A DNA stretch of 64,000 nucleotides from Gemmatimonadota bacterium (GCA_020348925.1 CP070758.1:4245003-4309002); one strand, 5' to 3'. Positions 4,401 through 64,000 are shown, counted from the stretch's first letter. Program-made: numbers and translations. Notes: generated by a model not told the origin, from the letters alone.

Positions 4401-4510
4401 ACGCCGTCACCTGGGATGCGTCCGATGTGAGCAGTGGTGTCTATTTCTACAGACTATCAGTAAATGATGGTCAGTGGTCGGAGACGAAGCGGATGGTGTT
4501 GATGAAATAA
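1481..4510 (+). CDS. Membrane-anchored DUF362 protein with dockerin repeats and T9SS sorting domain
   Basis: A 1009-residue mosaic protein. Residues 1-90 hold about three hydrophobic segments instead of a simple signal peptide. About 160-430 is a DUF362 domain (KNWIGVLTTAYREERYGG and ASTDPVAVSWYA are recognisable). About 490-590 looks like a CARDB-type beta-sandwich. About 600-805 is a GATase1-like alpha/beta domain opening with ILLVDDDAG. About 816-877 is a pair of dockerin-like calcium loops (DGAIDILDV and DGTVDILDV). The last 90 residues are the T9SS C-terminal domain with QNYPNPFNPSTDI and SGVYFYRL, ending in K. DUF362 proteins often sit beside ferredoxins, but this copy has no obvious Fe-S motif. 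ATG 1481 has AAGGAGG at good spacing; the GTG at 1451 does not. Confidence 0.8.
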   Translation: MRFQRKCLKIFERWYWLVGPVAFLWVLLRSATNPKRLTYPCQRAAMPLAANWALAAIALLTGSMVLRKFAKLSAAAVLIAGTIWFIGGMPDFGTSGIHEIPSLPVWDVVDPLSRVFVMDAVPPTTGSLAAGDASVPDAYLSDPAIDTLVAMLEAGGVFLHQTASHPEGIVGVDNVVVIKGNFQWTSRNTTSTDRIKGLVWQILNHPDGFSGEILVCDNTQDLGTGINHNDNNSEDPDQSIVDVVNTFYSKGYPLYLLDWVSIWDDVASEYSDGDYDDGYVYESETMVSYPKFRSPSGNHYISLRHGIWDSLSGEYDASRLCIIDFPVLKAHFRGGSTIAVKNWIGVLTTAYREERYGGIDPLHDDLFFGPYALVARVMAVTFPRLSIVDAAWTTRQGPINLSLVENTRMLLASTDPVAVSWYAAKFILTPIAVNPFETDPDRPGGLYNTILDRWTTFLADSAGFACTNTSSRIAVCDRTILGSPYIWLNDYTVDDSQGNNNGRPDEGETVSLVATLTNMNLDATGISVTLTTDDPDVQIIDPTVEFGGLAKDESITNEGNPFSFSIDTATVAHLCQFQLNIAADGGYTKSFDIELIVGTPTILLVDDDAGVQYEQNYTLALRTTQIFPEEWDASLMGTPTAEILQQYETVIWFTGDDRISTLTSEEQSAIRTLLDGGGKLLIAGQNIGYDLVEDGTISDADFYANYLHADYLSDSAQETFLYGIAGDPISGEYQFLPIGENQTSPDAIAPREGASPVFLYQVSREAAAIKYDGDHKVVYFGLGLEGIRPLSGDEYEVRGTIMGKIIQWLGYVETRGDVTQDGAIDILDVLTSVNMILGTVQPTPTQEWAADCNSDGTVDILDVLGIVNVILGIGTCPPEGTVGISPTALKYIQSLESLLTPENFSTLMTLIKEVYAPQKYRLAQNYPNPFNPSTDIRYQIPDGRDPVRTTLKIYNILGQEVKVLVDEVQEPGHHAVTWDASDVSSGVYFYRLSVNDGQWSETKRMVLMK

Positions 4511-32574: not shown

Positions 32575-35500
32575 ATGGAAAGATACGGCGACATTCCGGT
32601 TGAGTCGGACAAGACCACGGTTTCTTTGTGGATCCCCCCGAAGGAGCTTTTTCTTGTTCTTCTCCTCTCTTTTTTCTCACTGGTCTCTTCATCCTCGTGG
32701 GGAAGTATTACTGTTCCTCCCCTCAATGGAGTGGCAGACCGTGCCGTGAGCCTCTGGGACACGGCTCCCCTGAAACCTTTGAGCATAGCCTATCCTTCAG
32801 TTCCGGCCTTAATTGTGAATACCAAGGGGTTCACAAGGGATATCTCGGTTGACCCGGAAAAGAGGATTATTACCTTAAAGGAGACGGTGCATGGTCTCGA
32901 GTTGAAAAGACCCCTCATTTTCGAATTGAACACATTCGTCAAAGTAAAATCCTTGGAGGCGTTACCCAGGTTGCTGCGGGAGGAGCGCCGGAAAGCCCTG
33001 ACCGAGGAGCAGGCCGCCGGGACGAAGAGGGCTGGTATCAATATCGACATCCCGGTAAAATTTCCAAAGGCGTTATCTCGCATTATCGGTGAGGGGGGCG
33101 GTCTCAAAATTACGGGGTACAGGAAAATCAATTTCTCCGGGCGGAGCGAGTGGACGGAGGGGGACGTGCTCACGGCCACGCACCGCCCCTCGAAATTTCC
33201 CTCCCTCGTCATGGAACAGCGATCGCAATTCAAGATCGAAGGGACCATCGGTGAGAAGATACATGTCTATGTCGATCAGGATTCGGAGCGGATGACAGAA
33301 TTGGAGAATGCCATCCGAATCAACTACAAAGGCTCGGAGGATGAGATCGTCCAGGAGATCCAGGCGGGCAATACGTCCCTGTCCCTGCCCGGTACACAAT
33401 TCGTCAGTTTCAGCCAGCAGAACAAAGGGCTCTTCGGGATCAAGGCCTCGGCCAAAATCGGTCCGGTCGATCTCGTGGCCATCGCCAGCCAGGATAAGGG
33501 AGCGGGACAAAGAAAGTCCTTCCAGGCCGGGGCCGAGAGCTCGGCCGATAAAATTCCGGACTATCGCTACGATACAAGCCGCTATTTTTTTCTGGATGCG
33601 ATGTATGTGAAGAACTACTACGAGAACTACACCCAGGATTGGAAACACATTGCTGCTAACGAAAGAATCGACAGCCTCGAGGTCTTCATCGATGACAACA
33701 TAAACAACGACCTGGAGGGAAGGGGCAAGCTTGCCGACGCTGTTGTGAATCCACAATCTGATGACACGACGACATTCGACGACATAGGGGACGATGAAAA
33801 CCATCATGGATACTTCGACCTTTTGGACCCCGACGAATACTTTGTGCAGAAGGATCTGGGCTACATTCGGCTCAATTCGACCATAACCGGGGAAAAGACC
33901 TTGGCTGTGAGATACAAACTGGTGAACAGTACAACCTGGGTCGGCACGGCACCGAGCGATACGAGCAGCGACTTGCTATTGAAGTTGATCAGACCGGGGA
34001 GTCCACGGCCCAGCCATGATACCTGGGATCTCTCATGGAAGAACGTTTACTCCCTGGGAAGAATATCCGAGGACGGTTTGGACATAAAAATTTACTTCGA
34101 CACAGCCGGCGAGGAGGATGACGACTCACAGGGCGGTGACAAATACGTGACCATCATGGGACTCGATAAGTACAACAATGCAAATCCCGGCACACAGCTA
34201 CCGGACAATCTGTTTGACGCGTTCGACAGATCTCTCGTCAATTATGAACTTGGTGAGCTCCACTTTCCCCAGCAACGGCCCTTTGCTCCTGATACCGCCC
34301 TTTTTGGGATTCCTCTCAACACGCCTGTTCCGGAGATCTATGATGAGTCCAATACTACCCTTCGACAACAGGCCACTAAGTATTACATCGCCGTTGAATC
34401 GCAAACGCGGAAGACGTCTTACAGCCTGGGCATCAATATCATTGAGGGCTCGGAGGTGGTCAAGCTCAACGGGCGGGCGCTCCAGAGGAACAAGGATTAC
34501 AACATCATCTATGAGGTCGGTCAGATCACGTTTTTGACGGATGAGGCCATGGATCCCTCTGCGGATATTACGGTGGACTACGAGTATGCGCCCTTTTTCA
34601 TGCCGGAGAAAAAGACTCTGTTGGGCTTTCGAGCCGACTATTCCTTCTGGGAGGACGCGTCCTGGGGAGCGACTTTTCTGTATCGGAGTGAAAGCACCAT
34701 AGACCGCCGTATCCGCCTGGGTCAGGAGCCCTCGCGGGCCATCGTCTGGGACTCCGACATTCACCTCAATTTCGAGCCCCAGATTCTGACGGACATGGTG
34801 GATGCCCTGCCCTTCGTGCGGACCAATGCGCCGTCGGCTCTCAAAATCGACGGTGAGGTCGCCCAGAGCTTGCCCAACTCGAACACAAAGGGCGATGCCT
34901 ACGTGGACGATTTCGACGGCAGTAAGAATACGACGAGCTTGGGAGTCATGAGGGGCCACTGGACTCTGGCCAGCCCACCGAGTTCCGATGATCCTGTCAG
35001 GGGTCAATACTCGATCTGGAGTCGTTGGCAGTCCTTTTACTGGTACAATCCTTACACACAGGTGAGTGTAACGGATATCTGGCCTGAAAAAGAGGTCCTC
35101 GGCCGGGAGAACAAGACCCACGTGCTGACCCTCGAGTTCACACCCAAATCAGATCCCATCTATAACCCAAATCCGGCCAACTCCTGGGCCGGAGTGATGC
35201 GGGCGCTCTCTCAGGGGAACTACAATCAGTCGCTCAACAAGTACCTCGAAGTCTGGGTGCAGGGATCCAGCGGCCAAGTGAACATCGATCTCGGTCTCAT
35301 CAGCGAGGACGTCATTCCCAACGGCAAGCTCGATTCCGAGGATATTGGTGCGGATACTGGAGTGGGAGATGGAATCCTGGACAAAGATCCCGACGAAGAT
35401 GTAGGAATGGACGGTATGGCCGACGGCGACCCAAGAGCCGTTGCTGCCGGGGGAGATTTCTGGGATATTGACAGTATCGGCTCGAAACAGGCTTGGGAAC

Positions 35501-38500
35501 CATACAGTAACGATAACTGGAACTACAACAACAAGAATATTTACACGCAAATTAACGGTACCGAGGGAAACCGGGACGATTACGACAGGGCACAACGGCC
35601 GGACACCGAGGACATTAACGGGAAATCGTTGCTGGAAACAGAGAACGCCTTCTTCAGATATTCCTTTTCTCTGGAAGAGGACAGTCCGGATACGGTTTAC
35701 GTGGCCGGCGGTGATCCGAATGTCCCATGGAGAACGAGATGGCGCCTCTACCGCATTCCGCTGGCCCAGGCATCCGATACGGTCGGAGCGGCGGATATGG
35801 AACAAATTCGGTTTGCCCGGATCTGGATCACCGGAGTCGCGCGTCCCACAACAATAAGTCTGGCCGCCATCGACATCGTCGGCAACGACTGGTTGGAGGA
35901 TGGGATCGAGCCCGCCGCCCTTGTCTCCATCGATGAAACCTTCTCCGTGGCCGTGAAGAATACACACGATAATCCTGAGCCCGACTACATACCACCGCCC
36001 GGTGTCGAGGGTGTCAAAGACGCGGTCACCGGACTCAGGCAGATGGAGCAGTCGCTGGTGTTGATGTTTGAGAACCTCGCACCAGGCCATTCCGGCTCGG
36101 CGAGTCAGGACTACTCCACCCAGGCGAAAGATTTTACCCAATATCGAACGCTCCGCATGTACGTTCATGGCAATCTCCGCAGTTCCGCGGGGGTCGACAT
36201 AGGGGTGGCTGAATTCTTCTTCCGGTTCGGGGCCGATGCCAAGAACTACTATGAGTATCACACCATGATCTACCCCGGCTGGGATCCGCGCAATGAGGTC
36301 AACATCGAATTTGATGATCTGACGAACCTCAAGTACCAGAAGCTGGAATCCGGCAATACCGAGGGAGATACGACGGACGGTCACTTCACCGTCATGGGAA
36401 AGCCCTCTCTTTCCGCCATAAAAAAGCTTACTGCCGGTGTGAAGAGCGTCTCGTTCCATCCGGTTCAAAAGGGGATCGGCACACCCAGGAGGGAGGAGAC
36501 CATCTCCGGTGAAGTGTGGATCGATGAGCTGCGGCTGTCCAATGCGAGGGACGATCCGGGACTGGCCAGTAGGCTGACAGTGAATGCAACCCTGGCCGAT
36601 TTGGGCGGAGTTACGTTCAATATGAGCAGAACGGACGCCGAGTTCCAATCCTTAGGAGCTGGCTCTCGCTCCGACGCCCAAAAGACTGCCAAATCGGACG
36701 AGAGTATCCAGGGAAATCTCAACGCGGACAAGTTTCTGCCTGAGAAGTGGGGGATTTCTCTGCCCGTTTCAGGAAGCTACAGTAAGACGACGCAGTTGCC
36801 GAAGTTACAAAAGGGTTCCGATGTGAACCTGACCAGCGACGAACAGTGGAGGCAGCGAACCGAAAATATCAGTAAAAGTGGTCGAATCAGCTTCAGCAAG
36901 ACGAAGCCGTCGTCTTTCTGGCTGTTGGGATTAACCCTCGATCGAATGAAAGTTTCAGCTTCGGGTTCGGAGAAAGAGGGGCGTTCGACGACCAATCCCT
37001 ACAGCCTGACCCGACAGTTGAGTGGCTCTTTCTCTTATAACTTACAGTCGAAGAAAGATCTGTCGCTCTCCCCCTTGGCTTGGACCGCCTCCAAGTTTGT
37101 GCCGAAGTTCATCTCGGAGACAAAAATAACCCTCATACCATCAAACATAAGTTTTGACACGAGTATCAACCAGACGCGGACCCAGAAAGTGGACCGTCAT
37201 GACATACTCACGTCAAATTTTTCGCGGAAGACGACACAAAAAGTGAACAGCAGCATGAATCCCTTCGGTTCGGTATCGGCCAATTATTCCTTTAACAGGG
37301 GCTTTGACAGCCAGAGAGCTCAGGTGATGAGACTGAGATTTGGTCGGGAGACGGACCGAACGCAATCGCTCTCTCTAACCTATAAACCGCCGTTTCTCAA
37401 GTGGTTGGGTCCAAACTACTCTTACCGGATCAACTATCACGAAAAGGAGAATACGAAAGTAAAACCGCAGGAGATAGATACAACTTCTACTTCTACGAGA
37501 GAGTTTGGACTGGACGCCGACAACAGTATCAGCCACTCGATTGGGGCCAGCCTGAATGTCTCGCAGTTTTTAACCTCTCTGGGCGCGCCGAAGAAGGATG
37601 AGAAAATCGGACTTCTTTCGTACAAGAGAGTACTCGGAACATTGAAGTATGTCACCGATCGTTTTCAGAGTGTCTCCGCGTCCTTTCAGAAGGATCGGAG
37701 ATCGAACTGGTTCAGCTTGCTGGGACGCCCCACCTTGGACTATCAGTTCGGATTCAGTAGTGAACCTGGCATTGGGTCAGATCCCAATTTGACCGGCCAG
37801 ACCCACACCAGCTCTTCAGGTCAGGGCTGGAGCGCCAAATCGGGCTTGAATCTCATGGCCGGAGTGAACGTAAGCACCAGCATCTCCTCTGACAATAAAT
37901 CGACGGTCTCCTCAACCGGACGGTCGGATTCCCGGACGATGACGTTTCCCCAAGTCAGTACACGATGGGGAGACTTTGGTAAGCTCTATCTCATCAGGAA
38001 CCTTGTCCAGAGTTCGAGCCTCGATTTCAGCTATACCGAGAAAAAAACCGAGGAGGGCACGGACAATTTCAAGGTGCTCCGCTCCGAGTCGGTCAACAAG
38101 AATTTTTCGCCGCTTTTCTCCTGGTCCGCCACGTGGGCCAAGAACCTGAGCTCCACCCTGACGAGCAATCGAACGGAGACGGTCAACACCGATCATCAAC
38201 GAGATACGGAAACGGTCCAGACGAACTCGTCCCTGCGGGCCTCGTTCAAATACAGCTTCAGTGCACCGCAAGGGATTACACTCCCGCTCTTCGGAAAAGT
38301 GAAATTTCAGAGTAATTTGAACGTGAATCTCGATTTCAAACTCGATAACACGAAAAACATAACAAAGAATGCGGCCAACCCGGTCACAAAGGATGATCAA
38401 ACACGATCCATCTCTCTGGGCGGAAGCTACACCTTCAGCAAGAAAGTGAAGGGCGGGCTGAAGGTCGAAATAAGTGATCGGCACGACCGCAAGACAGACA

Positions 38501-38553
38501 AAAAAACAATGGTCCGGGACGTCGGTCTGTGGACGGAAATCCGGTTTGATTAG
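32575..38553 (+). CDS. sprA: T9SS outer-membrane translocon protein SprA (Sov)
   Basis: A 1992-residue protein of the SprA/Sov family, the very large outer-membrane barrel through which type IX secretion cargo crosses. It is somewhat shorter than the 2300-2500 residues of Flavobacterium and Porphyromonas homologues. Residues 20-45 are a hydrophobic signal segment (LFLVLLLSFFSLVSSSSWGS). SprA-type signatures include GEKIHVYVDQDSERMTELEN, INYKGSEDEIVQEIQAGNTS, LGYIRLN, a DDFDGSKNTTSLG segment and a WIDELRLSNARDD segment. The last third is rich in alternating polar/hydrophobic strands and FSYNL-type barrel repeats. No clear Shine-Dalgarno precedes ATG 32575. The gene ends in TAG. No other T9SS component (PorV, PorU, PorK-N) lies nearby. 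Confidence 0.9.
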   Translation: MERYGDIPVESDKTTVSLWIPPKELFLVLLLSFFSLVSSSSWGSITVPPLNGVADRAVSLWDTAPLKPLSIAYPSVPALIVNTKGFTRDISVDPEKRIITLKETVHGLELKRPLIFELNTFVKVKSLEALPRLLREERRKALTEEQAAGTKRAGINIDIPVKFPKALSRIIGEGGGLKITGYRKINFSGRSEWTEGDVLTATHRPSKFPSLVMEQRSQFKIEGTIGEKIHVYVDQDSERMTELENAIRINYKGSEDEIVQEIQAGNTSLSLPGTQFVSFSQQNKGLFGIKASAKIGPVDLVAIASQDKGAGQRKSFQAGAESSADKIPDYRYDTSRYFFLDAMYVKNYYENYTQDWKHIAANERIDSLEVFIDDNINNDLEGRGKLADAVVNPQSDDTTTFDDIGDDENHHGYFDLLDPDEYFVQKDLGYIRLNSTITGEKTLAVRYKLVNSTTWVGTAPSDTSSDLLLKLIRPGSPRPSHDTWDLSWKNVYSLGRISEDGLDIKIYFDTAGEEDDDSQGGDKYVTIMGLDKYNNANPGTQLPDNLFDAFDRSLVNYELGELHFPQQRPFAPDTALFGIPLNTPVPEIYDESNTTLRQQATKYYIAVESQTRKTSYSLGINIIEGSEVVKLNGRALQRNKDYNIIYEVGQITFLTDEAMDPSADITVDYEYAPFFMPEKKTLLGFRADYSFWEDASWGATFLYRSESTIDRRIRLGQEPSRAIVWDSDIHLNFEPQILTDMVDALPFVRTNAPSALKIDGEVAQSLPNSNTKGDAYVDDFDGSKNTTSLGVMRGHWTLASPPSSDDPVRGQYSIWSRWQSFYWYNPYTQVSVTDIWPEKEVLGRENKTHVLTLEFTPKSDPIYNPNPANSWAGVMRALSQGNYNQSLNKYLEVWVQGSSGQVNIDLGLISEDVIPNGKLDSEDIGADTGVGDGILDKDPDEDVGMDGMADGDPRAVAAGGDFWDIDSIGSKQAWEPYSNDNWNYNNKNIYTQINGTEGNRDDYDRAQRPDTEDINGKSLLETENAFFRYSFSLEEDSPDTVYVAGGDPNVPWRTRWRLYRIPLAQASDTVGAADMEQIRFARIWITGVARPTTISLAAIDIVGNDWLEDGIEPAALVSIDETFSVAVKNTHDNPEPDYIPPPGVEGVKDAVTGLRQMEQSLVLMFENLAPGHSGSASQDYSTQAKDFTQYRTLRMYVHGNLRSSAGVDIGVAEFFFRFGADAKNYYEYHTMIYPGWDPRNEVNIEFDDLTNLKYQKLESGNTEGDTTDGHFTVMGKPSLSAIKKLTAGVKSVSFHPVQKGIGTPRREETISGEVWIDELRLSNARDDPGLASRLTVNATLADLGGVTFNMSRTDAEFQSLGAGSRSDAQKTAKSDESIQGNLNADKFLPEKWGISLPVSGSYSKTTQLPKLQKGSDVNLTSDEQWRQRTENISKSGRISFSKTKPSSFWLLGLTLDRMKVSASGSEKEGRSTTNPYSLTRQLSGSFSYNLQSKKDLSLSPLAWTASKFVPKFISETKITLIPSNISFDTSINQTRTQKVDRHDILTSNFSRKTTQKVNSSMNPFGSVSANYSFNRGFDSQRAQVMRLRFGRETDRTQSLSLTYKPPFLKWLGPNYSYRINYHEKENTKVKPQEIDTTSTSTREFGLDADNSISHSIGASLNVSQFLTSLGAPKKDEKIGLLSYKRVLGTLKYVTDRFQSVSASFQKDRRSNWFSLLGRPTLDYQFGFSSEPGIGSDPNLTGQTHTSSSGQGWSAKSGLNLMAGVNVSTSISSDNKSTVSSTGRSDSRTMTFPQVSTRWGDFGKLYLIRNLVQSSSLDFSYTEKKTEEGTDNFKVLRSESVNKNFSPLFSWSATWAKNLSSTLTSNRTETVNTDHQRDTETVQTNSSLRASFKYSFSAPQGITLPLFGKVKFQSNLNVNLDFKLDNTKNITKNAANPVTKDDQTRSISLGGSYTFSKKVKGGLKVEISDRHDRKTDKKTMVRDVGLWTEIRFD

Positions 38554-52711: not shown

Positions 52712-55666
52712 ATGAAAAGGATTCTTCGATCTTTCACAGTAAGTTTCATTTCATGCGTATTTTTCGTTTCGGTTGGTTCGTCGCAAATTCTATTTTTCGA
52801 GCACACGATTGACGATCAATTCGGCGGTCCGGGAGGCGTCTACGCCTGCGATCTCGATGGCGATGGGGCCATCGATGTGCTCGGTGCCGCAATTGACGAC
52901 AACGAGATTGCCTGGTGGCGCAATGAAGCCGATGGGTCCAACACTTGGACAAAACAGACCATCGATGATCAATTCGATGGCGCCATATTTGTCTACGCTA
53001 CCGATGTCGACGGCGATCTTGATACCGACGTCCTGGGCGCTGCCTGGGAAATTGACGAGATCGCCTGGTGGCGCAACGACGGCGGCGATCCCATCGTCTG
53101 GACGAAACAGGTGATCGACGGCGATTTCGGTGCGGCCCATGAAGTCTACGCCTGCGATCTCGACGGCGATTCGGACACCGACGTGCTCGGTGCGGCAGCC
53201 TTCGGGGACGAAATTGCGTGGTGGCGCAACGACGGCGGCAGTCCCATCGTCTGGACGAAACAGGCGATCTCCGGTCAGTTTCCAGGTGCTCGGTCGGTCT
53301 ACGTTGCTGATATAGACGGCGACGAGGATAACGATGTCCTGGGTGCTGCTCTGGACAGCAATGAACTGACGTGGTGGCGCAACGACGGTGGGAATCCCAT
53401 CGTCTGGACGGAAACGAATATTACGTCCGCCTTCTTGGGTTCGCACATGGTTCGCACCTACGATATGGACAACGACGGCGATCCGGATGTTCTCGGTACA
53501 GCCTATGGTGCCAGGGACATTGCCTGGTGGCGGAATGACGGAGGAGACCCGATTTCGTGGACGAGGCAGACCATCGAGGGTGAATTTGTCGGTGCGGTCT
53601 CCGCCTATGCCGCCGATATTGACAGGGACGGGGATCTCGACGTCTACGGGGCAGCTCAGGACGCCGGGGATGTGGCCTGGTGGCGTAACGATGGCGGTGA
53701 TCCCATCGTCTGGACGAGGTTTTTGATTGATGACAGCTTCGGAGGTTCGTGGCCGATTTACTCCGGTGATCTCGATGGTGATCATGATACGGATATTGTT
53801 TGCGGCGGCAATGGAGCCAACGAAATCAGATGGTGGGAAAACAGCCTCTACGGGGCGCGTTTTCAAACGGACGTCACGACCGGCCACGCACCCCTGACGG
53901 TTCAGTTCAGCAATCTCTCAAATGCTGTCCCCGCGATCACGAGCTGGAAATGGGATTTCGATACTGACGGGAGCATCGATTCCGAAGAACAACACCCGCA
54001 ATGGACGTACGAGGAACCCGGATCATACTCGATCTCTCTGGAAGTATCGAACGGATCGGATACATACTCCATCATCCAGGAAGACCGTATTCGAGTCTTC
54101 GACGGCGAGAGCGCACTTGAATTTAATGGCCAAAACAGCTACGTCTCCTGTCCCGCTGCGCCTCCTCTCAACCTGACCGATGCATTCACTGTTGAAGCCT
54201 GGATCTACCCCACCGGCTGGGGCGAATTTGCAAATTTCGGTTTGGGAAGAATCATTGACAAGATCTATCTGTCCCTCCAACTGGTCGACTCCTACCTCAG
54301 CTTTAACAATCACAGCCTCCTTCTCCAGCTCTATCATCAGGGTGGACCTGTCAGTCAATCCAACTCCCCGGAAAATGCCATCTCCCTTGACCAATGGCAC
54401 CATGTGGCCGTCACCTACAACGGCCACGATGAGGTGAACATGTACATCAATGGTATTGGTCAGACCGTATCTTACGCAATCCCGCCCTCAGGCCCATTAC
54501 AGGACAATAGCCCATACGACCTGTATATCGGCAACGAGATAAACACTGGCAATACGTTTGAGGGCATCATCGACGAGCTTCGAATCTGGAATGTCGCGCG
54601 CACCGGGGAGGAGGTTCAGAGCAACATGAACACATACCTGACCGGCATGGAGACCGCTTTGGTCGGCTACTATCAGATGAACGAGGGACAGGGCGAGTCC
54701 ATTTCGGATGACTCACCCTATGATAACGGCGGAGTTGTGATTGAAGCGGCATGGATCCAGGGATTTCATTTAGAGCCGGCGACGACGGATGAGGATGAGG
54801 ACGGAATTCTTGACGTGGAGGATAACTGTCCCCTCACGTACAATCCTGATCAGGAAGACGGTGATGGTGACGCCATCGGTGACGCCTGCGACAATTGCCC
54901 CGCCGACCATAATCCCGATCAAACGGATGCCGACGCTGATGATGTAGGTGATATCTGCGATGCATGCACTGACACTGACGGGGACGGATACGGCGATCCG
55001 GGTTTTCCAACCAACACTTGCCAGGAGGACAATTGCCCGGGTGTCCATAACCCGGATCAGGCTGAAGTGGAGAGGGGCAATATAGACTGTCAGGGAGCAT
55101 CTGATGTTCTGGATGTCCTGGCCGTCGTCAATCACATACTGGCCTCCGCTCCGCTGCTTGGGGGTCCTCTCGACCGGGCCGATTGTAACGGTGACGGGGG
55201 AGTGAATATATTGGATGCTTTGGGTATCATTAATGTGATCCTGGGCCTCGGCGAGTGTGCACCCGCAGCCTCAAAACCGGAAATCACTCCTGAGGTGATC
55301 CGGTTCTGTGAATCGTTGAAACCCTATCTTTCAAGGGATTCGTATGAACGGTTCATGGCCTCGGTCAAAGCCGAAGCCAATACTCCAACCGACTATCTGC
55401 TTTTGCAGAACTATCCCAATCCATTTAATCCTGAGACGACGATCCGATTCTCCCTCCCACGCGCCTCATACATCCGCCTGGCAATATACAATATGAAAGG
55501 AGAATGTGTCAAAAGGCTCATTGATGGCGAAAAAGCGACCGGACATCATGCGATCAGGTGGAACGGCACAAACGAAGAAGATCAATTCGTCAGTTCCGGT
55601 GTATACTTCTGCAGACTGGAAACGAAAGAGCTGAGCAGAAGCAGACGAATGCTGCTTCTGAAATAG
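52712..55666 (+). CDS. T9SS cargo 1: FG-GAP-like head, PKD, LamG, TSP3, dockerin, sorting domain
   Basis: A 984-residue secreted protein. Residues 1-24 are a signal peptide. About 25-376 has seven FG-GAP/VCBS-like repeats (VYACDLDGDGAIDVLGAA, each followed by EIAWWRNDGG), which should form a calcium-binding beta-propeller. About 380-463 is a PKD domain (GHAPLTVQFSNLSN, WKWDFDTDGSIDSEE). About 468-680 is a LamG/concanavalin-like domain (LTDAFTVEAWIYPTGWG). About 691-790 has thrombospondin type-3 repeats (DEDGILDVEDNCPLTYNPDQ). About 791-850 has dockerin-like loops (DVLDVLAVVNHIL, DCNGDGGVNILDALGI). The T9SS domain is QNYPNPFNPETTI to SGVYFCRL, ending in K. AGGAGG precedes the ATG. It is probably a surface adhesin; no enzymatic motif is visible. 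Confidence 0.88.
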   Translation: MKRILRSFTVSFISCVFFVSVGSSQILFFEHTIDDQFGGPGGVYACDLDGDGAIDVLGAAIDDNEIAWWRNEADGSNTWTKQTIDDQFDGAIFVYATDVDGDLDTDVLGAAWEIDEIAWWRNDGGDPIVWTKQVIDGDFGAAHEVYACDLDGDSDTDVLGAAAFGDEIAWWRNDGGSPIVWTKQAISGQFPGARSVYVADIDGDEDNDVLGAALDSNELTWWRNDGGNPIVWTETNITSAFLGSHMVRTYDMDNDGDPDVLGTAYGARDIAWWRNDGGDPISWTRQTIEGEFVGAVSAYAADIDRDGDLDVYGAAQDAGDVAWWRNDGGDPIVWTRFLIDDSFGGSWPIYSGDLDGDHDTDIVCGGNGANEIRWWENSLYGARFQTDVTTGHAPLTVQFSNLSNAVPAITSWKWDFDTDGSIDSEEQHPQWTYEEPGSYSISLEVSNGSDTYSIIQEDRIRVFDGESALEFNGQNSYVSCPAAPPLNLTDAFTVEAWIYPTGWGEFANFGLGRIIDKIYLSLQLVDSYLSFNNHSLLLQLYHQGGPVSQSNSPENAISLDQWHHVAVTYNGHDEVNMYINGIGQTVSYAIPPSGPLQDNSPYDLYIGNEINTGNTFEGIIDELRIWNVARTGEEVQSNMNTYLTGMETALVGYYQMNEGQGESISDDSPYDNGGVVIEAAWIQGFHLEPATTDEDEDGILDVEDNCPLTYNPDQEDGDGDAIGDACDNCPADHNPDQTDADADDVGDICDACTDTDGDGYGDPGFPTNTCQEDNCPGVHNPDQAEVERGNIDCQGASDVLDVLAVVNHILASAPLLGGPLDRADCNGDGGVNILDALGIINVILGLGECAPAASKPEITPEVIRFCESLKPYLSRDSYERFMASVKAEANTPTDYLLLQNYPNPFNPETTIRFSLPRASYIRLAIYNMKGECVKRLIDGEKATGHHAIRWNGTNEEDQFVSSGVYFCRLETKELSRSRRMLLLK
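55119..55182 (+). repeat. 64-nt identical tail segment, copy 1
   Basis: Runs from TGGCCGTCGTCAATCACATA to CTCGACCGGGCCGA and is identical in DNA to 58088-58151 in the next gene. It encodes the first part of the dockerin-like module, while flanking sequence has diverged. Confidence 0.9.
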
Positions 55667-55716
55667 AATCTGAGGGTTCACATGAAACAACGTTTCTTCG
55701 AGGGAAAGGAGATATG

Positions 55717-58632
55717 ATGAAGACGTTCTTAAAGTATGTCGCGGTCTGTCTGTCTCTGCTCGCGGTATTTTGGTCATCCGCTTCCGGCCAGATTTCTTTC
55801 ACAAAACACACCATCACAAGCACCTATGACTACACAATGTCCGTTTATGCCGTGGACCTCGACGGAGACAACGATGTCGATGTGCTGGGGGCGGCTTTTG
55901 GCGCCAACACAGTGACATGGTGGGAGAACGACGGCCATCGTAATTTCATCGAGCATACGATCTCCGAAAATTTCGACGGGGCCAGAACCGTCTGGGCCGT
56001 GGACCTGGATCTGGATGGGGATATGGATGTTCTCGGGGCCGGAGGCGACAAGGTCGCCTGGTGGGAAAACGATGGAAATGAATCGCTCAACTATATCCTC
56101 ATCGATGGTATTTTTGATGGCTCCCACACGATATCAGGAGAAGATATCGACCAAGATGGGGATATCGACATCGTGTGCTCAGCCCATGGTTTTTCAGGAT
56201 CAACTGCATGGTGGGAGAATGACGGGCATCAAAATTTCACAAAGCACACTATATCCACTATCGTCAACGGACATCCGTGCGCTTATGCTGAGGACATCGA
56301 CGGCGATAATGACGTCGACATGTACGGTTGTATTTTCGCCTTGGGTCGTGTGATGTGGTGGGAGAACGATGGGAGTCAGAATTTCACAGAACATACGATT
56401 CCCGATAATTTCAACGGTGTCCACTGGGTCTATGCGACAGATGTGGATGGTGATGACGACGTGGATATTCTTGGTGCCGCCTATACAATCAACCAAATTG
56501 CCTGGTGGGAGAACGACGGAAATCAGAACTTCACCAAGCATACGCTCACGAACACCTTCAACGGTGCAACGTCAGTCTACGCTGAGGACATCGATGACGA
56601 CGGTGATATCGATGTTTTTGGTGCAGCGGAAGGGGCCAGCGAGATTCGGTGGTGGGAGAACGACGGGCATCAGAATTTCACCGAATATTCGGTCTCAGGA
56701 AATCTGCCCGGCGCCAGCCACGTTTGGACCTTTGATGTGGATGGTGACGGTGACGTGGATGTCCTGGGCGCGGCCAATATTGCCGACGAAATCGCATGGT
56801 GGGAGAATACCCTGTACGGGGCCCAATTTGAAACGGACGTCACCAGTGGACATGCGCCCCTCATGGTCCAGTTCACGGATTTTTCAAACGCCAATCCTCC
56901 TCTGACAACCTGGGGATGGGACTTCGATCACAATGGATCCATAGATTCGGAGGAGCAGAACCCAACGTGGACCTACCCAGAGCCCGGGACCTATACCGTC
57001 ACCTTAGAAGTATCGAACGGAGCCCTCACCCTGACAAGAACCTTGGAGGACTACATCCGTGTCTTCGATGGTGAGAGTGGACTTCAGTTTGATGGGAATA
57101 ACAGTGCTGTTGTCTGTGAGGCATCACCATCGTTGAATTGTACCGACGCCCTGACCGTCGAAGCCTGGATCCGTCCCTCCGGCTGGGGGGAAACGCAAGG
57201 CCTCGGATTTGGTAGAGTTGTTGAAAAGGGACCATTCACCCTCTTTCTCATTGGGTCTCATCCATCCTTCAACGATCACAGTTTGGCTGTGCAGCTCTCC
57301 CATGTTCAAAGCCCCATCAGTTTTTCGACAACCCCTCAACAATCGATCCACCTCGACTCATGGCAGCATGTGGCCATGACGTATGATGGACCATCAAGTC
57401 ATATGAACATTTACATCAACGGTGTGGAACAGACGCTCACGCATTCACCGGAACCCTCGGGAAATATCGCCGACAACAGCGCGCACGAATTGGTGATTGG
57501 AAACAATGCCAGCCGTGGTTTCACCTTTGATGGTATCATTGATGAGGTTCGAATCTGGGATGTCGCGCGTTCGGGGGAAGATATCCAGGCCACAATGGAC
57601 TCATACCTTTCCGGTCTGGAGCCCGGATTGGTGGGCTACTGGCAGATGAACGAGGGCAGCGGCGGGACGATCTCGGATTATTCAACCAATGACAACGACG
57701 GTATAGTGACTGACGCGGCATGGATTCAGGGTATCAACCTCAGTCCGGCAACAGCGGATGGCGACGAGGACGGGATCCTTGACTTTGATGACAATTGCCC
57801 CAACGACTATAATCCAGAACAAGAGGATATGGATGCAGATGATAGAGGTGATGTCTGCGACAACTGTCCGGCACAGGCCAATCCCGATCAGGCCGATGGT
57901 GATAACGATGGCAGCGGTGATGTGTGCGACGCGTGCCTGGACACGGACGGCGATGGGTACGGCGACCCTGGTCACCCGGAGGACGAATGCGAGGAGGACA
58001 ATTGCCCCCATGCGTACAATCCTGATCAGGCACCTGTTGAGGGAGGCGATGTGGACTGCAATGGTGGGATCGATGTCCTCGATGTGTTGGCCGTCGTCAA
58101 TCACATACTGGCCTCCGCTCCGCTGCTTGGGGGTCCTCTCGACCGGGCCGACTGCAACGGTGACGGAGGTGTCGACATTTTAGATGCTCTGGGAATCATC
58201 AATGTGATTTTAGGTCTTGGCGAGTGTTCCCCCTCTCTCAAACCGATCGTGAATCCCAATGTGGTATACTATTGTGAGTCACTCAAGCATTATCTTTCAA
58301 CCGAAGACTTCAATCAGTTCATGCTACTCGTGAAAACCAAAGTTCGGATTCCGACAGAATACCATCTCTCTCAAAATTATCCCAATCCCTTTAATTCCGA
58401 GACAACGATTCACTTTGCCGTACCACGAATGTCACATATCTTCCTGGCTATCTACAATATCCGTGGGGAGATTGTGAAAATGCTTGTCAATAATACAAAA
58501 GAAGCCGGCAACCATTCGGTCAGGTGGAACGGTTCGAACGAGCACGATCAGAAAGTGAGTTCAGGGGTATATTTTTACCGGATAGTCACAGGTAATTTCA
58601 CCGATACCAAGAAAATGATATTGTTGAGATAG
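55717..58632 (+). CDS. T9SS cargo 2: FG-GAP-like head, PKD, LamG, TSP3, dockerin, sorting domain
   Basis: A 971-residue paralogue of the gene before it, 50 bp downstream. The head (about 25-364) again has FG-GAP-like repeats, but here of the form VYAVDLDGDNDVDVLGAAFG with WWENDGHQNF, and shorter spacers than in cargo 1. Next come PKD (about 368-448), LamG (about 451-675), TSP3 (about 678-780), dockerin-like loops (about 780-836) and the T9SS domain (QNYPNPFNSETTI, SGVYFYRIVTG), ending in R. Two ATGs lie at 55714 and 55717; AAAGGAG favours the second. A longer open frame to 55558 overlaps the previous gene and is not used. It ends in TAG. Confidence 0.88.
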   Translation: MKTFLKYVAVCLSLLAVFWSSASGQISFTKHTITSTYDYTMSVYAVDLDGDNDVDVLGAAFGANTVTWWENDGHRNFIEHTISENFDGARTVWAVDLDLDGDMDVLGAGGDKVAWWENDGNESLNYILIDGIFDGSHTISGEDIDQDGDIDIVCSAHGFSGSTAWWENDGHQNFTKHTISTIVNGHPCAYAEDIDGDNDVDMYGCIFALGRVMWWENDGSQNFTEHTIPDNFNGVHWVYATDVDGDDDVDILGAAYTINQIAWWENDGNQNFTKHTLTNTFNGATSVYAEDIDDDGDIDVFGAAEGASEIRWWENDGHQNFTEYSVSGNLPGASHVWTFDVDGDGDVDVLGAANIADEIAWWENTLYGAQFETDVTSGHAPLMVQFTDFSNANPPLTTWGWDFDHNGSIDSEEQNPTWTYPEPGTYTVTLEVSNGALTLTRTLEDYIRVFDGESGLQFDGNNSAVVCEASPSLNCTDALTVEAWIRPSGWGETQGLGFGRVVEKGPFTLFLIGSHPSFNDHSLAVQLSHVQSPISFSTTPQQSIHLDSWQHVAMTYDGPSSHMNIYINGVEQTLTHSPEPSGNIADNSAHELVIGNNASRGFTFDGIIDEVRIWDVARSGEDIQATMDSYLSGLEPGLVGYWQMNEGSGGTISDYSTNDNDGIVTDAAWIQGINLSPATADGDEDGILDFDDNCPNDYNPEQEDMDADDRGDVCDNCPAQANPDQADGDNDGSGDVCDACLDTDGDGYGDPGHPEDECEEDNCPHAYNPDQAPVEGGDVDCNGGIDVLDVLAVVNHILASAPLLGGPLDRADCNGDGGVDILDALGIINVILGLGECSPSLKPIVNPNVVYYCESLKHYLSTEDFNQFMLLVKTKVRIPTEYHLSQNYPNPFNSETTIHFAVPRMSHIFLAIYNIRGEIVKMLVNNTKEAGNHSVRWNGSNEHDQKVSSGVYFYRIVTGNFTDTKKMILLR
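58088..58151 (+). repeat. 64-nt identical tail segment, copy 2
   Basis: Identical to 55119-55182. The corresponding region of the third paralogue (about 60709-60785) has diverged at many positions. Confidence 0.9.
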
Positions 58633-58666
58633 TTGGTTTCACGAAAATGAGATATGGAGGAGAAAG

Positions 58667-61249
58667 ATGAAGGCAACGATCGCTTTTTTCGGAATAGTAT
58701 TGATCCTGATATCGAATACATCGGCATTGGCCTGTACCGGGATCACAGCTTCCCGTGGTAATACTATTCTCTTCGGCAACAATGAGGATTGGAACGATCA
58801 CGATACGTACATATGGTTCACGCAACCGGCTGAGGGAAAATTTGGCGGCGTCTATTTCGGGTACAGCAATTTTTGGCAGCAGGGCGGGATGAACGAAAAA
58901 GGGTTGTGCTTCGACGGATTTGCAACCCCGTACTATGCGGTCCATAATCCTGATAACAAACCCCAGTATCAAGGCAGGTTTCTTGAAAAAGTGATGGAGG
59001 AGTGTCAGAATATTGAAGAAGTGGTGGACTTATTTGGACAGTATTACCTTCCATGGTTATCGAACTGCCAACTCTTTTTTATCGACCGAACCGGCGCTTC
59101 GGTCATCATTGAAGGCGATTCGCTCGTGTACAAAGAGGGCGCTTACCAAGTCTGTACCAACTTCTATCAGACGAATCCCCAGGTGGGCTGGTGGCCGTGC
59201 TGGCGGTACAATACGGCCGTAGAAATGTTTGAGAACAGCGACAGCATATCAGTCGATCTGTTCCGTTCTATTCTGGATGCCTGTCATCAGAGTGGTTCGT
59301 ACCCCACGCTCTACTCTAATATCTACGATCTGAATGAGGGGGTTGTCTATGTCTATCTCGATCATGACTTCAATAATGTCTGGAAAATAGACCTCGCGAA
59401 GGAATTGGCCTTAGGTGCTCACACCCACTATTTACCCTCTCTGAGCGGACTGGACTTTGCAGCCGAACCCACCTCGGGACATGCACCGCTGACAACTCAA
59501 TTCAGGGATATCTCAACGGCCTTCCAGCCCATAACATCCTGGGCCTGGGATTTCGACAACGACGGCATCATCGATTCCGAAGATCAAAACCCGGCTTGGA
59601 CGTACCCTGACACCGGATCGTACACCGTCTCCCTTGAGTTTTCCAACGGAACGTTTTTTTATTCCAGAATATATGAAGATTGTATCAGGGTATTTGACGG
59701 TGAAAGTGCTCTCGAGTTCGATGGCGCCGAGAGCTATGTATCATGCCCGTCCGTACCATCCCTCAATCTTACCCAGACCCTGACCGTCGAAGCCTGGATC
59801 AAACCGGCGAACTGGGGGGAAAATAGCATCCTCGGTTTCGGGAGAGTGGTCGACAAAAGGCAATTCGCCCTGTTCCTTGTGGGCTCACATCCTGCTTACA
59901 ACGACTACAGTTTAGGACTGCAGCTCTACCACGAAAACGGCCCCATCAGCTTTTCAACGACGCCGGAACATACCGTCACCCTCGATGAATGGCAGCATGT
60001 TGCTGTTACCTACGACGGTACGACCAACGAGGTCAACATGTATATCAACGGCATTGAGCAAACGCTAACGCAGCCTCAGCTCCCTTCAGGACCCATTACC
60101 GACAACAGCGGAAATGACCTCATCATTGGAAGCGACGTCTATCGCGGCTACACTTTTGACGGCACCATCGACGAGGTTCGTCTGTGGAATGTTATCCGTT
60201 CAGAAGAGGAGATCGCTGAAAGCATGGATTCTTACTTACTGGGGATTGAGGCGGGGTTGGTCGGCTGTTGGCAGATGAATGAGGGGTATGGCGAGACCAC
60301 AGCCGATCTCTCCGACTTTTCACACACAGGTCTACTGAATGATGCAACCTGGATCCAGGGCATTCATCTGAGTCCAGCCGTGTTGGATGCTGACGACGAT
60401 GGTATCCTCGACGCCGACGATAATTGTCCCAATGATCCTAATCCCGGACAGGAGGACAAAGATTTTGACGCTGTTGGGGATGTATGCGACAATTGTCCTG
60501 ATGATCCCAATGCCGATCAGGCCGACAGGGACAGCGATGGAACCGGAGATATGTGCGACTCGTGCATGGACACCGACGGTGACGGGTACGGGAATCCCGG
60601 TTATCCGATCAATACCTGCGAGGAGGACAATTGTCCTGATATGTACAATCCGGATCAGGAACCGATTGAACGGGGGAATATTGATTGTTTGGGCGACATC
60701 GACGTTATGGATGTACTATCGGTGGTCAACCACATATTGGGCACAGCCTCTCTCATCGGAGATCCTCTTGATCGAGCAGACTGCAACGGTGATGGACGAA
60801 CCGACATTCTGGACGCCGTTGGTATCATAAAAGTCATCTTAGGTACAGGCGAATGCGCACCGGATGGCTCGAAACCGCTGGTCACCTCCGATGTTGTCCG
60901 GTTCTGCGAATCGTTGAAATCCTATCTTTCACTTGAGAATTACGTTCGCTTTATGGATCTTGTAAAAGCTGAGGTTTACGTTCCTGCTGAGTACTCACTC
61001 TTCCAAAACCATCCTAATCCCTTCAATCCTGAAACGGAAATTGCTTTCGCTCTTCCCAAATCCTCCGAAGTCACTATTAAGGTCTACAATGTCATTGGAC
61101 AAGAAGTAGACGTGTTGGTTGATTCGGAGCTGGATGCCGGCTTCCATAGGGTAAAGTGGAATGCTTCTTACATGACCAGTGGCGTCTATTTTTATCGTTT
61201 GAAAGCGGGCACTTTTACAGCCGTAGAAAAGATGATTGTGCTGAAGTAA
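58667..61249 (+). CDS. T9SS cargo 3: Ntn-hydrolase head on the same PKD-LamG-TSP3-dockerin tail
   Basis: An 860-residue secreted protein. The signal peptide ends ALA and is followed directly by CTGITASRGNTILFGNNEDW. This is the start of a choloylglycine hydrolase/acyl-transferase-like Ntn domain (to about 260), whose catalytic residue is the first Cys after cleavage (Cys23). The Asn/Asp-rich NNEDW loop and GMNEKGLCFDG are typical. Such enzymes cleave linear amides such as bile salts, penicillin or acyl-homoserine lactones; the substrate here is unknown. Next come PKD (about 263-341), LamG (344-568), TSP3 (573-675), dockerin-like loops (675-730) and the T9SS domain, with QNHPNPFNPETEI instead of QNYPNPF, ending in K. 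GGAGGAG precedes the ATG. Confidence 0.85.
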   Translation: MKATIAFFGIVLILISNTSALACTGITASRGNTILFGNNEDWNDHDTYIWFTQPAEGKFGGVYFGYSNFWQQGGMNEKGLCFDGFATPYYAVHNPDNKPQYQGRFLEKVMEECQNIEEVVDLFGQYYLPWLSNCQLFFIDRTGASVIIEGDSLVYKEGAYQVCTNFYQTNPQVGWWPCWRYNTAVEMFENSDSISVDLFRSILDACHQSGSYPTLYSNIYDLNEGVVYVYLDHDFNNVWKIDLAKELALGAHTHYLPSLSGLDFAAEPTSGHAPLTTQFRDISTAFQPITSWAWDFDNDGIIDSEDQNPAWTYPDTGSYTVSLEFSNGTFFYSRIYEDCIRVFDGESALEFDGAESYVSCPSVPSLNLTQTLTVEAWIKPANWGENSILGFGRVVDKRQFALFLVGSHPAYNDYSLGLQLYHENGPISFSTTPEHTVTLDEWQHVAVTYDGTTNEVNMYINGIEQTLTQPQLPSGPITDNSGNDLIIGSDVYRGYTFDGTIDEVRLWNVIRSEEEIAESMDSYLLGIEAGLVGCWQMNEGYGETTADLSDFSHTGLLNDATWIQGIHLSPAVLDADDDGILDADDNCPNDPNPGQEDKDFDAVGDVCDNCPDDPNADQADRDSDGTGDMCDSCMDTDGDGYGNPGYPINTCEEDNCPDMYNPDQEPIERGNIDCLGDIDVMDVLSVVNHILGTASLIGDPLDRADCNGDGRTDILDAVGIIKVILGTGECAPDGSKPLVTSDVVRFCESLKSYLSLENYVRFMDLVKAEVYVPAEYSLFQNHPNPFNPETEIAFALPKSSEVTIKVYNVIGQEVDVLVDSELDAGFHRVKWNASYMTSGVYFYRLKAGTFTAVEKMIVLK

Positions 61250-61302
61250 TACGAGGGGACATCTTCAGTCTCCAAGCGAGCCCTGATGTCAAGCTGGCTA
61301 TC

Positions 61303-64000
61303 ATGAAAACAAGAGCGCTACTCTTTACTTTTGGCGTACTCCGCTTCTTCATTTCATCTGACTCCCCGGCCAACGAGATCGTTGGATTCACAGAAAAGGA
61401 TCTTGCGACATACAAACAGGAGATACGTGAATCACACAGGGAATGGACAACGGGACCAAAGCTCTATCTGCACAAGGCCATAGGAAATCTGACCGTGCAT
61501 AAGGCGTCGAGCGCGGAGACGTACGAGGCCTATTTCCACATCCCCATCTCCTTTGAGGAACAGGCGCCCATACTCATCAAGGTCGAGAGCCCTGATCTCA
61601 TCGATTACAGATTCATACACCTGAATCCGCCGAACATACTCATTGCCGTCCGCCTGAACCGGGCTCCAGCGACAAGTATCAATTGGACAGGGTGGGTTCT
61701 GGTAAAGGAGACGAGGTATCCGGAGCTTCCGGACTACGTCCCCATTCCCACAGTGGATCAGTTACCCGATTCTGTGAGGAAATGGTTGGTCTCGACGGAC
61801 TGTTCTCAGCTCTCGGTGCCGATTGTGCAGGAGATGGCGGCAACCCTCCGAGGGACCACAACCAATCTCTTGAATCTTGCCAATTCGATCAACACGTATT
61901 GTTTTGGCATCCCCTGGGAATGGATTCGTTTCCCAATTTCCTTTGATGCCGTGTATGCCATGAATTGGGGAAATTCCTGCACAGGACATGCCCATGCCGG
62001 GGCTGCCCTCTTCCGGGCCAATGGAATACCGGCGCGATCGATCCTGAATATACCGATATGGTATCCCGGTTACATGGACATGCATTGGATTATCGACTAT
62101 TTTGTTCCGGAGTATGGATGGATCAAAATGGAGACGTCTCACGGTCATAATTTCTATTCTTCCGAAAATACAGTCGTTGTATTTGTTTCACATCCTGAGG
62201 ATGAATTTCCACTCTTCTATCCTGTCGGCTGCGATGAACAGTGGCACACGTCGGATCCTGCCCTGGGACACAATCCGAATTGGGGAGAAGCGCATCGAGC
62301 ATTTTCGCTCAATACCGTAACCACTTCCACCGATACGATGGATCTCGCCCACTCGTTGACACAGTCCGTGTTCCACTATTATACCCATTTATGGGGGATT
62401 CCCTTGCCTCCTGAACATGAGGAATGCCTCCAAATTGCCTACGCCAACCAACAGGCGGCATTAATAGCTTTTCAAAATGTCGATCTCGATTTGTACGTAG
62501 CCTTGATGCAAGAGGCTTTGCTTTATTATCAAAACATGACGCCTGGGCCATGGACGACTCTTTTCTTCGAGGATTTTGAAGATGGCCAAGGAGCGTGGAG
62601 CACAGGTGGGATGCAGAACGAGTGGGAATGGGGCGTTCCCTCCTACGGACCATCTCAGGCTCACTCCGGTGACTGTTGTTGGGGAACGGACTTAGAGGGC
62701 ACATATGAGAATAACGCTGATTGCTGGCTCAAGTCCCCTCCCGTCGATCTTTCCGGAATAGGGTGTGCCTATGTGAGTTTCTGGGTCTGGAACTGGGTCG
62801 AGGATAATATCTGGGATACAAGCAATTTTTTTAATATTCACGATCCCTTGTGGTTAGATATCACGTTGGACGGGACTACTTTTTACCCTTTATGCGGTCA
62901 GATGGGCGGAGTCAATGATGATCCTGAGATACCACCTGTTGGCGGATGGAGTCGGGTGGTACTGGATCTCACACAATATGTTGGGAACACCGTTCGCATT
63001 CGATTTCGATTTCAATCTGATAACCAAAATACACAGCCGGGATCTTACATTGACGATGTCCACGTTTATACAAAGGACATAACCGGTTTTGTGCCTTCCT
63101 TTACAGGTGAGCCAAGGTGCGGGAATGCCCCCCTGGAGGTGAGTTTTACGGGCCAATCATTAAAAGACATCGTAACCTGGAAGTGGGATTTTGACGATGA
63201 CGGGGCGATCGATTCCTATAAACAGAATCCGGTCTGGACGTACGAAGAGCCGGGTACGTATACCGTAGGTTTAGAGGCTTTCAACGGTTCAATTACAGGA
63301 ACGTCAGTACACGAAAACTTCATCACCATATTTGACGGTGAAACCGCCCTTCACTTTAATGGATTCAGCAGTTATGTTCACTGTCCACCGAATCCGAATA
63401 TGGATTTCATCGATGCTATAACAATAGAGACATGGATAAAGCCCTACGGATGGGGTCAATTTCAAGGTATTCACAATGGCACGTTCATTGACAAAGGTCT
63501 TTTCTCTCTCAGTTTCGTGCGCAGAGGTCCAGTCTTGAATGATTCAAGCCTCGTCTTTCAGGTCGTTCGCGAGCACAGGGCTGAGAGCTATTCAAACACT
63601 CCCGAGAATTCTATAAATCCTGGGGAATGGCAACACGTTGCTGCGACATACAAAAGCTCGGGTGAAGTTGAGATCTTCATCAACGGCGAGAAGCAGCCGA
63701 TCACCCAAATAGTATTACCGTCGAGTAGCCTGACTGAGAATGGACTCGTCATTGGGAATTCTTCAGACTATGGTACAGCATACAATGGAGTTATTGATGA
63801 AATCCGACTGTGGAATATTGTCCGTACCACGGACGATATCCAGACCCACATGGATTTATACTTAACCGGACATGAGCCCGGTTTGGTCGTTTACTGGCAG
63901 ATGAACGAAGGAAATGGAGGGACAATTACAGACCATTCTGGAAACGGAAATGATGGGACAATCGTCGATGCGTCGTGGATCCAAGGGGTGCATTTTGGTC
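61303..64000 (+). CDS. T9SS-type cargo 4 (open at window edge): transglutaminase-like head, MAM-like domain, PKD, LamG
   Basis: An uninterrupted frame of 899 codons with no stop before the window ends. It opens MKTRALLFTFGVLRFFISSD, a weak signal peptide. About 30-390 includes a transglutaminase/papain-fold core: NWGNSCTGHAHAGAALFRA with Cys226, MDMHWIIDYF with His261, and GWIKMETSHG with Glu277 where Asp is usual. About 420-590 is a MAM-like beta-sandwich (FFEDFEDGQGAWSTGGMQNE, SYIDDVHVYTKD). About 593-675 is a PKD domain (WKWDFDDDGAIDSYKQNPVW), then LamG (678 on). These last two modules align with those of the three genes before it, so the TSP3, dockerin and sorting parts probably lie beyond the edge. 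The ribosome site is weak. Confidence 0.82.
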   Translation, partial: MKTRALLFTFGVLRFFISSDSPANEIVGFTEKDLATYKQEIRESHREWTTGPKLYLHKAIGNLTVHKASSAETYEAYFHIPISFEEQAPILIKVESPDLIDYRFIHLNPPNILIAVRLNRAPATSINWTGWVLVKETRYPELPDYVPIPTVDQLPDSVRKWLVSTDCSQLSVPIVQEMAATLRGTTTNLLNLANSINTYCFGIPWEWIRFPISFDAVYAMNWGNSCTGHAHAGAALFRANGIPARSILNIPIWYPGYMDMHWIIDYFVPEYGWIKMETSHGHNFYSSENTVVVFVSHPEDEFPLFYPVGCDEQWHTSDPALGHNPNWGEAHRAFSLNTVTTSTDTMDLAHSLTQSVFHYYTHLWGIPLPPEHEECLQIAYANQQAALIAFQNVDLDLYVALMQEALLYYQNMTPGPWTTLFFEDFEDGQGAWSTGGMQNEWEWGVPSYGPSQAHSGDCCWGTDLEGTYENNADCWLKSPPVDLSGIGCAYVSFWVWNWVEDNIWDTSNFFNIHDPLWLDITLDGTTFYPLCGQMGGVNDDPEIPPVGGWSRVVLDLTQYVGNTVRIRFRFQSDNQNTQPGSYIDDVHVYTKDITGFVPSFTGEPRCGNAPLEVSFTGQSLKDIVTWKWDFDDDGAIDSYKQNPVWTYEEPGTYTVGLEAFNGSITGTSVHENFITIFDGETALHFNGFSSYVHCPPNPNMDFIDAITIETWIKPYGWGQFQGIHNGTFIDKGLFSLSFVRRGPVLNDSSLVFQVVREHRAESYSNTPENSINPGEWQHVAATYKSSGEVEIFINGEKQPITQIVLPSSSLTENGLVIGNSSDYGTAYNGVIDEIRLWNIVRTTDDIQTHMDLYLTGHEPGLVVYWQMNEGNGGTITDHSGNGNDGTIVDASWIQGVHFG

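Follow-up and report, generated by a model that had tools for sequence, protein, structure and literature searches.

Neighbouring genes with unrelated heads appear to exchange pieces of a shared dockerin and T9SS tail in a Gemmatimonadota genome

Gram-positive cellulosome systems use anchors other than the T9SS sorting domain. For Candidatus Stygibacter (Cloacimonadota), a CTD-anchored, cellulosome-like cohesin-dockerin complex has already been proposed, consisting of (i) dockerin-bearing secreted enzymes, including C25 gingipain-like peptidases, and (ii) a scaffoldin-like protein with several cohesins, for which attachment to the cell surface through its CTD has been suggested (PMC8542988). 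Noncellulosomal cohesin and dockerin modules have also been described (Peer et al. 2009, as represented in PMC8542988).

Here, we analyse a 64,000 bp stretch of DNA (hereafter, the window) from a Gemmatimonadota bacterium (GCA_020348925.1), corresponding to bases 4245003-4309002 of a single 5.04-Mb scaffold (CP070758.1). The system to which the window belongs is a much larger variant of the complex proposed in Cloacimonadota. Both combine dockerin-bearing secreted proteins with a multi-cohesin scaffold (PMC8542988); in contrast to Candidatus Stygibacter, the present genome encodes at least 148 dockerins and 81 cohesin matches (most of the latter above cut-off), adaptors of three cohesins and a dockerin beside a six-cohesin anchored protein, many proteins with both a dockerin and a sorting domain, and tails that seem to have undergone gene conversion. 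With the clostridial cellulosome it shares a type I-like dockerin with two calcium loops, multi-cohesin scaffolds and adaptor scaffoldins, whereas the heads found here are peptidases, esterases, propellers and others, and a scan of roughly 25 heads or proteins gave no glycoside hydrolase. As in the noncellulosomal modules, in so far as PMC8542988 represents them, cohesins and dockerins occur outside plant-cell-wall degradation, but on a larger scale and coupled to T9SS. Our reading, which we consider fairly likely, is that this is a T9SS-exported cohesin-dockerin system in which heads were rarely joined to a common tail, and in which distal tails were converted between neighbouring genes while the heads were not swapped. 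The reading builds on domain content, family size, the pattern of the trees, high-identity tracts and their dependence on distance, SprA and PorV, and the multi-cohesin proteins.

The window ends in four consecutive plus-strand genes (positions 52712-64000), separated by 50, 34 and 53 bp (Table 1).

Table 1. Coordinates of the array, of its candidate conversion tracts, and of associated secretion and scaffold genes (window positions count from the first base of the window).
Feature	Coordinates	Strand	Remarks
Gene 1, 984 aa	window 52712..55666	+	signal peptide and FG-GAP propeller head
Gene 1, FG-GAP head	window 52712-53860	+	
Gene 1, PKD, LamG, TSP3 and dockerin	window 53861-55258	+	
Gene 1, T9SS sorting domain	window ~55274-55663	+	
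Gene 2, 971 aa	window 55717..58632	+	FG-GAP propeller head to 56823
Gene 2, PKD, LamG, TSP3 and dockerin tail	window 56824-58227	+	
Gene 2, sorting domain	window ~58240-58629	+	
Gene 3, 860 aa	window 58667..61249	+	probable Ntn hydrolase (AAT/choloylglycine hydrolase-like) head, common tail
Gene 3, sorting domain	window ~60872-61246	+	
Gene 4, incomplete	window 61303..64000	+	transglutaminase-like head and MAM-like region; stops at assembly gap
Gene 4, PKD and LamG	from window ~63100	+	
Conversion-like tract, gene 1 dockerin	window 55119..55239	+	90.1% over 121 bp with gene 2
Partner tract, gene 2 dockerin	window 58088..58208	+	
DUF362-head protein with dockerin and sorting domain	window 1451..4510	+	
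SprA/Sov, T9SS outer-membrane translocon	window 32575..38553	+	PF14349, E 2e-44
Three cohesins and dockerin	genome 4334158-4335618		own profile
Three cohesins and dockerin	genome 4335653-4337197		own profile
Six cohesins and sorting domain	genome 4337232-4340957		own profile

ORF and Pfam analyses confirm the architecture given in the original prediction, with some weaker points: PKD, LamG, TSP3-like, dockerin and T9SS sorting domains in genes 1-3, PKD and LamG up to the edge in gene 4, and two FG-GAP heads plus a transglutaminase-like one. PKD and Laminin_G_3 are present in all four genes, FG-GAP occurs seven times in each of genes 1 and 2 (E 1e-31 and 9e-39), and gene 4 matches Transglut_core (E 3e-7). 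Dockerin_1 exceeds its cut-off in genes 1-3, with both dockerin calcium loops following D-x-[DN]-x-[DN]-G-x-x-[DN]-x-x-D in most alignment rows (by eye). Por_Secre_tail lies above cut-off in genes 2 and 3 and slightly below it in gene 1 (25.3 of 27 bits), where FlgD_ig is above its own. TSP_3 scores are below the Pfam cut-off in genes 1 and 3 (19.1 and 17.1 of 25), and gene 2 is without a listed match; the TSP3-like region is nonetheless clear in the alignment of tails, and a tail profile matches thrombospondin/COMP type-3 repeats in the PDB (E 1e-43). In an AlphaFold model of the tail, only PKD and LamG are modelled well; a Foldseek search with this model returns pentraxin/PAPP-A-type LamG folds.

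The Ntn hydrolase assignment of the gene 3 head is one of the weaker points. The head is probably an Ntn hydrolase of the AAT/choloylglycine hydrolase-like kind: it scores just under the AAT (22.5 of 23.2) and CBAH (20.3 of 20.4) cut-offs, its single, weak PDB match is a choloylglycine hydrolase (E 0.007), and a Cys directly follows the likely end of the signal peptide (cleavage between SALA and CTG). The fold itself was not confirmed, an AlphaFold model of this head made without an alignment giving a pLDDT of 37.

Window base 64000, where gene 4 stops, abuts 100 N (genome 4309003-4309102), and no tail coding was found past this gap; the stop therefore reflects an assembly break. A dockerin and a sorting domain probably complete gene 4 as well, since its closest paralogue (genome 507187-510753; head 79% and shared tail 75% identical) has the full tail with both. 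The array is old, as fourfold sites of genes 1 and 2 are near saturation (0.40 observed versus 0.28 expected at saturation). A promoter and terminator scan returned 28 promoter-like sites versus 13.7 expected, and gave no clear operon boundary. Elsewhere in the window, a T9SS sorting domain also occurs on a 2038-aa protein (positions 17208-23324) that contains DUF7453 and NosD/beta-helix repeats.

The array belongs to a large, genome-wide family, of which it forms one island. Searching the whole genome with one tail gave about 25 long matches (sixteen with E < 1e-220) and many partial ones; given these roughly 25 recurrences of the tail, the pattern in the array is far above chance. The genome stretches examined hold 29 genes with PKD and LamG. 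These have 13 head types: FG-GAP (nine genes), a second FG-GAP type (FG-GAPb), transglutaminase-like, DJ-1/PfpI with kelch, two S41 peptidase types, a metallo-beta-lactamase fold, two alpha/beta-hydrolase types, SMP-30, PD40, Ntn hydrolase and MAM. The common surface module of dockerin and T9SS sorting domain that had been predicted is thus found behind at least 13 head types, and the TSP3-dockerin segment also follows papain, gingipain C25, serine beta-lactamase-like, DUF362 and UnbV/ASPIC heads. Genome-wide, at least about 145 T9SS sorting tails lie above cut-off. Composition and tracts were analysed in a set of 190 tail or cohesin genes, of which 75 have a dockerin without sorting domain or cohesin, 47 a dockerin and a sorting domain, 25 a cohesin and a sorting domain, and 22 a dockerin and a cohesin (13 of these 22 with a sorting domain as well). 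A CTD remnant downstream of dockerin-terminal genes was seen only at 221491, indicating that most of these genes truly end at the dockerin.

The original prediction went further, proposing a diversification cassette that swaps catalytic or binding heads onto the common module. Such active exchange would be the work of a recombinase, or of frequent crossover where head meets tail. Tails behind unrelated heads are up to 71% identical (mean 55%), as such a cassette would have it, and the FG-GAP tails do not form one clade (AU p 0.0016). Two well-supported pairs of sister tails also carry different heads. In the first, the PKD-LamG tail of gene 2 is sister to that of an SMP-30-like (SGL)-head gene 1.4 Mb away (support 100/99, and 99/98 in a tree with added relatives); the second unites FG-GAPb with DJ-1/kelch (97/94). 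The gene 2 tail groups with 2843811/2934695/2937678, and the tail data reject placing it with the genes that have the nearest heads, FG-GAP genes 1487272 and 2856013 (AU p 0.0105).

Each of these points has a counterpart. FG-GAP is the likely ancestral head, judging by the relatives described below, so paraphyly of its tails is expected. Neither the DJ-1 tails (p 0.076) nor the ABH2 tails (p 0.21) reject monophyly, and the FG-GAP head data allow gene 2 to sit in the clade of its tail (p 0.215). Mapped onto the tail tree, the head types require 13 changes against a minimum of 12, which leaves about one exchange, and none of 200 shuffles came as low; with relatives from other lineages added and scored as FG-GAP, the count is 14 against a minimum of 13. 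From these near-minimal counts, on a tail tree that is itself blurred by conversion, each head would have joined the tail about once and then been duplicated along with it. Furthermore, the head-tail junction has the lowest DNA sharing of ten points measured along the gene (longest shared run 15 bp, mean 7.8, over 334 pairs of different head types), and thus gives no sign of a recombinase site or of active exchange at that point. Divergence of head and tail is often similar within head families (head/tail identity 79/75% for TGase, 60/64% for S41a, 54/47% for ABH2); in the FG-GAP genes, tail identity (57-68%) exceeds that of most heads (34-73%). We therefore regard the cassette as quite improbable: active or ongoing head swapping is not supported, and the trees suggest one or two head exchanges, in the DJ-1/kelch gene and in gene 2.

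It is in the tails that recombination is visible. Between neighbours whose heads are unrelated, DNA identity rises to 84-98% in bounded tracts set within near-saturated sequence. FG-GAP gene 2843811 adjoins metallo-beta-lactamase-fold gene 2846793, and the two are 97% identical in DNA over about 100 sorting-domain codons, with 100% of fourfold sites identical; fourfold identity is 7-57% through PKD and LamG (mostly 33-57% in LamG), and identity is back to 65% in the last 35 codons. Two FG-GAP/DJ-1 pairs have tracts of 94% over 275 bp (2843811 and 2849635) and of 86% over 734 bp with a 97% core (2930946 and 2937678), while two S41b genes (2923485 and 2928167) are 84% identical over 781 bp from LamG to dockerin and 59% elsewhere. 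Within the array, genes 1 and 2 share the dockerin tract listed in Table 1; their aligned sequence outside it is 59% identical, and fourfold sites alone give a permutation p of 0.0005 (the floor of the test). Plain BLAST of the DNA had pointed to no recent exchange, a result that was set aside: the tracts are diluted in long HSPs, and a windowed codon alignment revealed them. The codon-window figures leave out the pair 507187/3775704, whose register is shifted by gap letters.

The tracts depend on distance. Of the 33 tract pairs among the 190 genes, 21 are no more than 5 kb apart, versus 0.4 expected (maximum of 4 near pairs in 5000 permutations, p 0.0002). From fourfold sites alone, 15 of 91 near pairs (16.5%) are significant at the p 0.005 level, versus 8 of 1100 far pairs (0.7%), an odds ratio of 27 with a Fisher p of 2e-12 that is nominal because pairs share genes. 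Several other high-identity near pairs fail the fourfold test, and may be ordinary duplicates. A protein-level PHI test also indicates mosaic tails (p 0.001; supporting only, as it was run without a rate-clustering model), and module-to-module distance correlations are too noisy for TSP3. One exception to the near-neighbour rule was seen: dockerin genes 1063081-1065072 and 2668050-2668799, at a distance of 1.6 Mb, are 99% identical over 314 bp at one end.

Tracts of this kind point to recombination between tandem genes, by ectopic gene conversion or unequal crossing-over. Distance-dependent, bounded tracts with high synonymous identity resemble the concerted evolution of tandem paralogues, which here, unlike usually, would act on the shared C-terminal module of genes with non-homologous N-terminal parts. 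Could the same pattern arise from old tandem duplication and domain accretion, with strong selection on the tail, no conversion, and neighbours that are simply the youngest duplicates? Most tail DNA is indeed near saturation, and some same-head neighbour pairs (S41b, MBL) could be younger duplicates. Yet near-saturated sequence flanks the tracts, the genes that they connect have non-homologous heads, and the excess is found at fourfold sites, so protein constraint is no explanation; we consider plain duplication unlikely. With conversion between neighbours as the preferred reading, tail pieces seem to move between genes with unrelated heads while the heads stay in place. The earlier description of constant tails with different heads was right, and its exchanged heads are better read as exchanged tail pieces.

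Mosaic genes could also arise in a scaffolded draft genome if copies of the repeated tail were wrongly joined, and 100-N gaps do lie in or beside several tail genes, including at the window end and at 3776865-3776964. However, most tracts lie in stretches without gaps, and their 84-95% identity, with the differences scattered along them, sets them apart from collapsed repeats; the family is also present as dozens of distinct copies. An assembly artefact is thus a very improbable explanation of the whole, even if a few tracts could come from assembly error at gapped repeats. The three transglutaminase-head genes (gene 4 of the window, 507187 and 3775704) are all at or near 100-N gaps, so repeats probably broke the assembly there. 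ORF 3775704-3778994 spans the gap at 3776865-3776964, with a glycogen phosphorylase-like start (by eye) and a transglutaminase-type tail end, and is likely an artificial join rather than a real fusion. ORF 4894583-4897237 starts at a gap and encodes a partial guanylate kinase followed by a MAM domain and the common tail; it is either an odd fusion or an assembly chimera.

The same tail was also sought in other genomes. In searches of 59 and then 386 genomes, a comparison in which the phylum is represented by one genome, strong PKD-LamG matches (>300 bits) occurred only in distant lineages and without a dockerin. Among eight other-lineage proteins with a related PKD-LamG, seven have an FG-GAP head and none has a dockerin. 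The combination of FG-GAP, PKD, LamG and sorting domain without dockerin was found in one other-lineage genus (three genomes, one with three copies); the named genomes (Zixiibacteriota, Planctomycetota, Bacteroidota and others) gave mainly TSP3-like stretches rather than the whole tail. The rooting of the extended tree is itself inferred, since the outgroup is not clean, with two rows inside the ingroup, one of them on a very long branch.

These comparisons suggest the following history. A PKD-LamG-T9SS chassis with an FG-GAP head, known also from other lineages, would have been the start, and the TSP3-dockerin segment would have been inserted into it in the present lineage. About a dozen unrelated heads may then have been joined to the tail, each roughly once, among them esterase, S41 peptidase, metallo-beta-lactamase fold, transglutaminase-like, Ntn hydrolase and several propeller heads. 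Whole genes would subsequently have been duplicated, often in tandem, and their distal tails (the LamG end, TSP3, dockerin and sorting domain) patched between neighbours by homologous recombination, that is, by ectopic gene conversion or unequal crossing-over, irrespective of head. As an effect, docking and export parts would stay compatible with shared cohesin scaffolds and T9SS while heads diverge freely; this compatibility, and any benefit of homogenisation, we infer. A stronger version, in which the system is a T9SS-exported analogue of the cellulosome, very rich in cohesins and dockerins, whose tail is kept uniform on unrelated proteins by conversion between neighbours, such that new heads are automatically compatible with the scaffolds, is possible but doubtful. 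The array may serve as a model of how many unrelated enzymes and binding proteins come to sit on one surface system, through rare recruitment of heads and homogenisation of tails. It raises the question of whether docking specificity is preserved by gene conversion, and its scaffolds beside adaptors, together with dozens of dockerins, form a testable set for asking whether cohesin and dockerin work with T9SS outside plant-fibre degradation.

As in the T9SS CTD cargo of Bacteroidota, a conserved C-terminal sorting domain here follows unrelated secreted proteins, and SprA (in the window) and PorV (family members in 8 places in the genome, best E 2e-25) are present. Unlike in Bacteroidota, a longer tail (PKD-LamG-TSP3-dockerin) was recruited with the sorting domain, and the GldM N-terminal family (GldM_1st) was not found in the genome search; a T9SS motor is accordingly putative and may be divergent. 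The predicted export through T9SS is thus backed by SprA and PorV and not by GldM, and export itself would follow from these components and the sorting domains.

The three scaffoldin-like genes in Table 1 are consecutive and lie about 25 kb past the window, with Pfam cohesin above cut-off in the 4337232 and 4334158 frames. Their predicted layout is that of an anchored scaffold with adaptor scaffolds, where pairing of cohesins with dockerins is presumed solely on the basis of domain models. A dockerin and a sorting domain occur together in many proteins, so docking would not be needed to hold these at the surface. In the stretches examined, thirteen proteins unite cohesin, dockerin and T9SS sorting domain (e.g., genome 408309-410918, 513705-515054 and 65461-67182), and such proteins could self-associate or chain.
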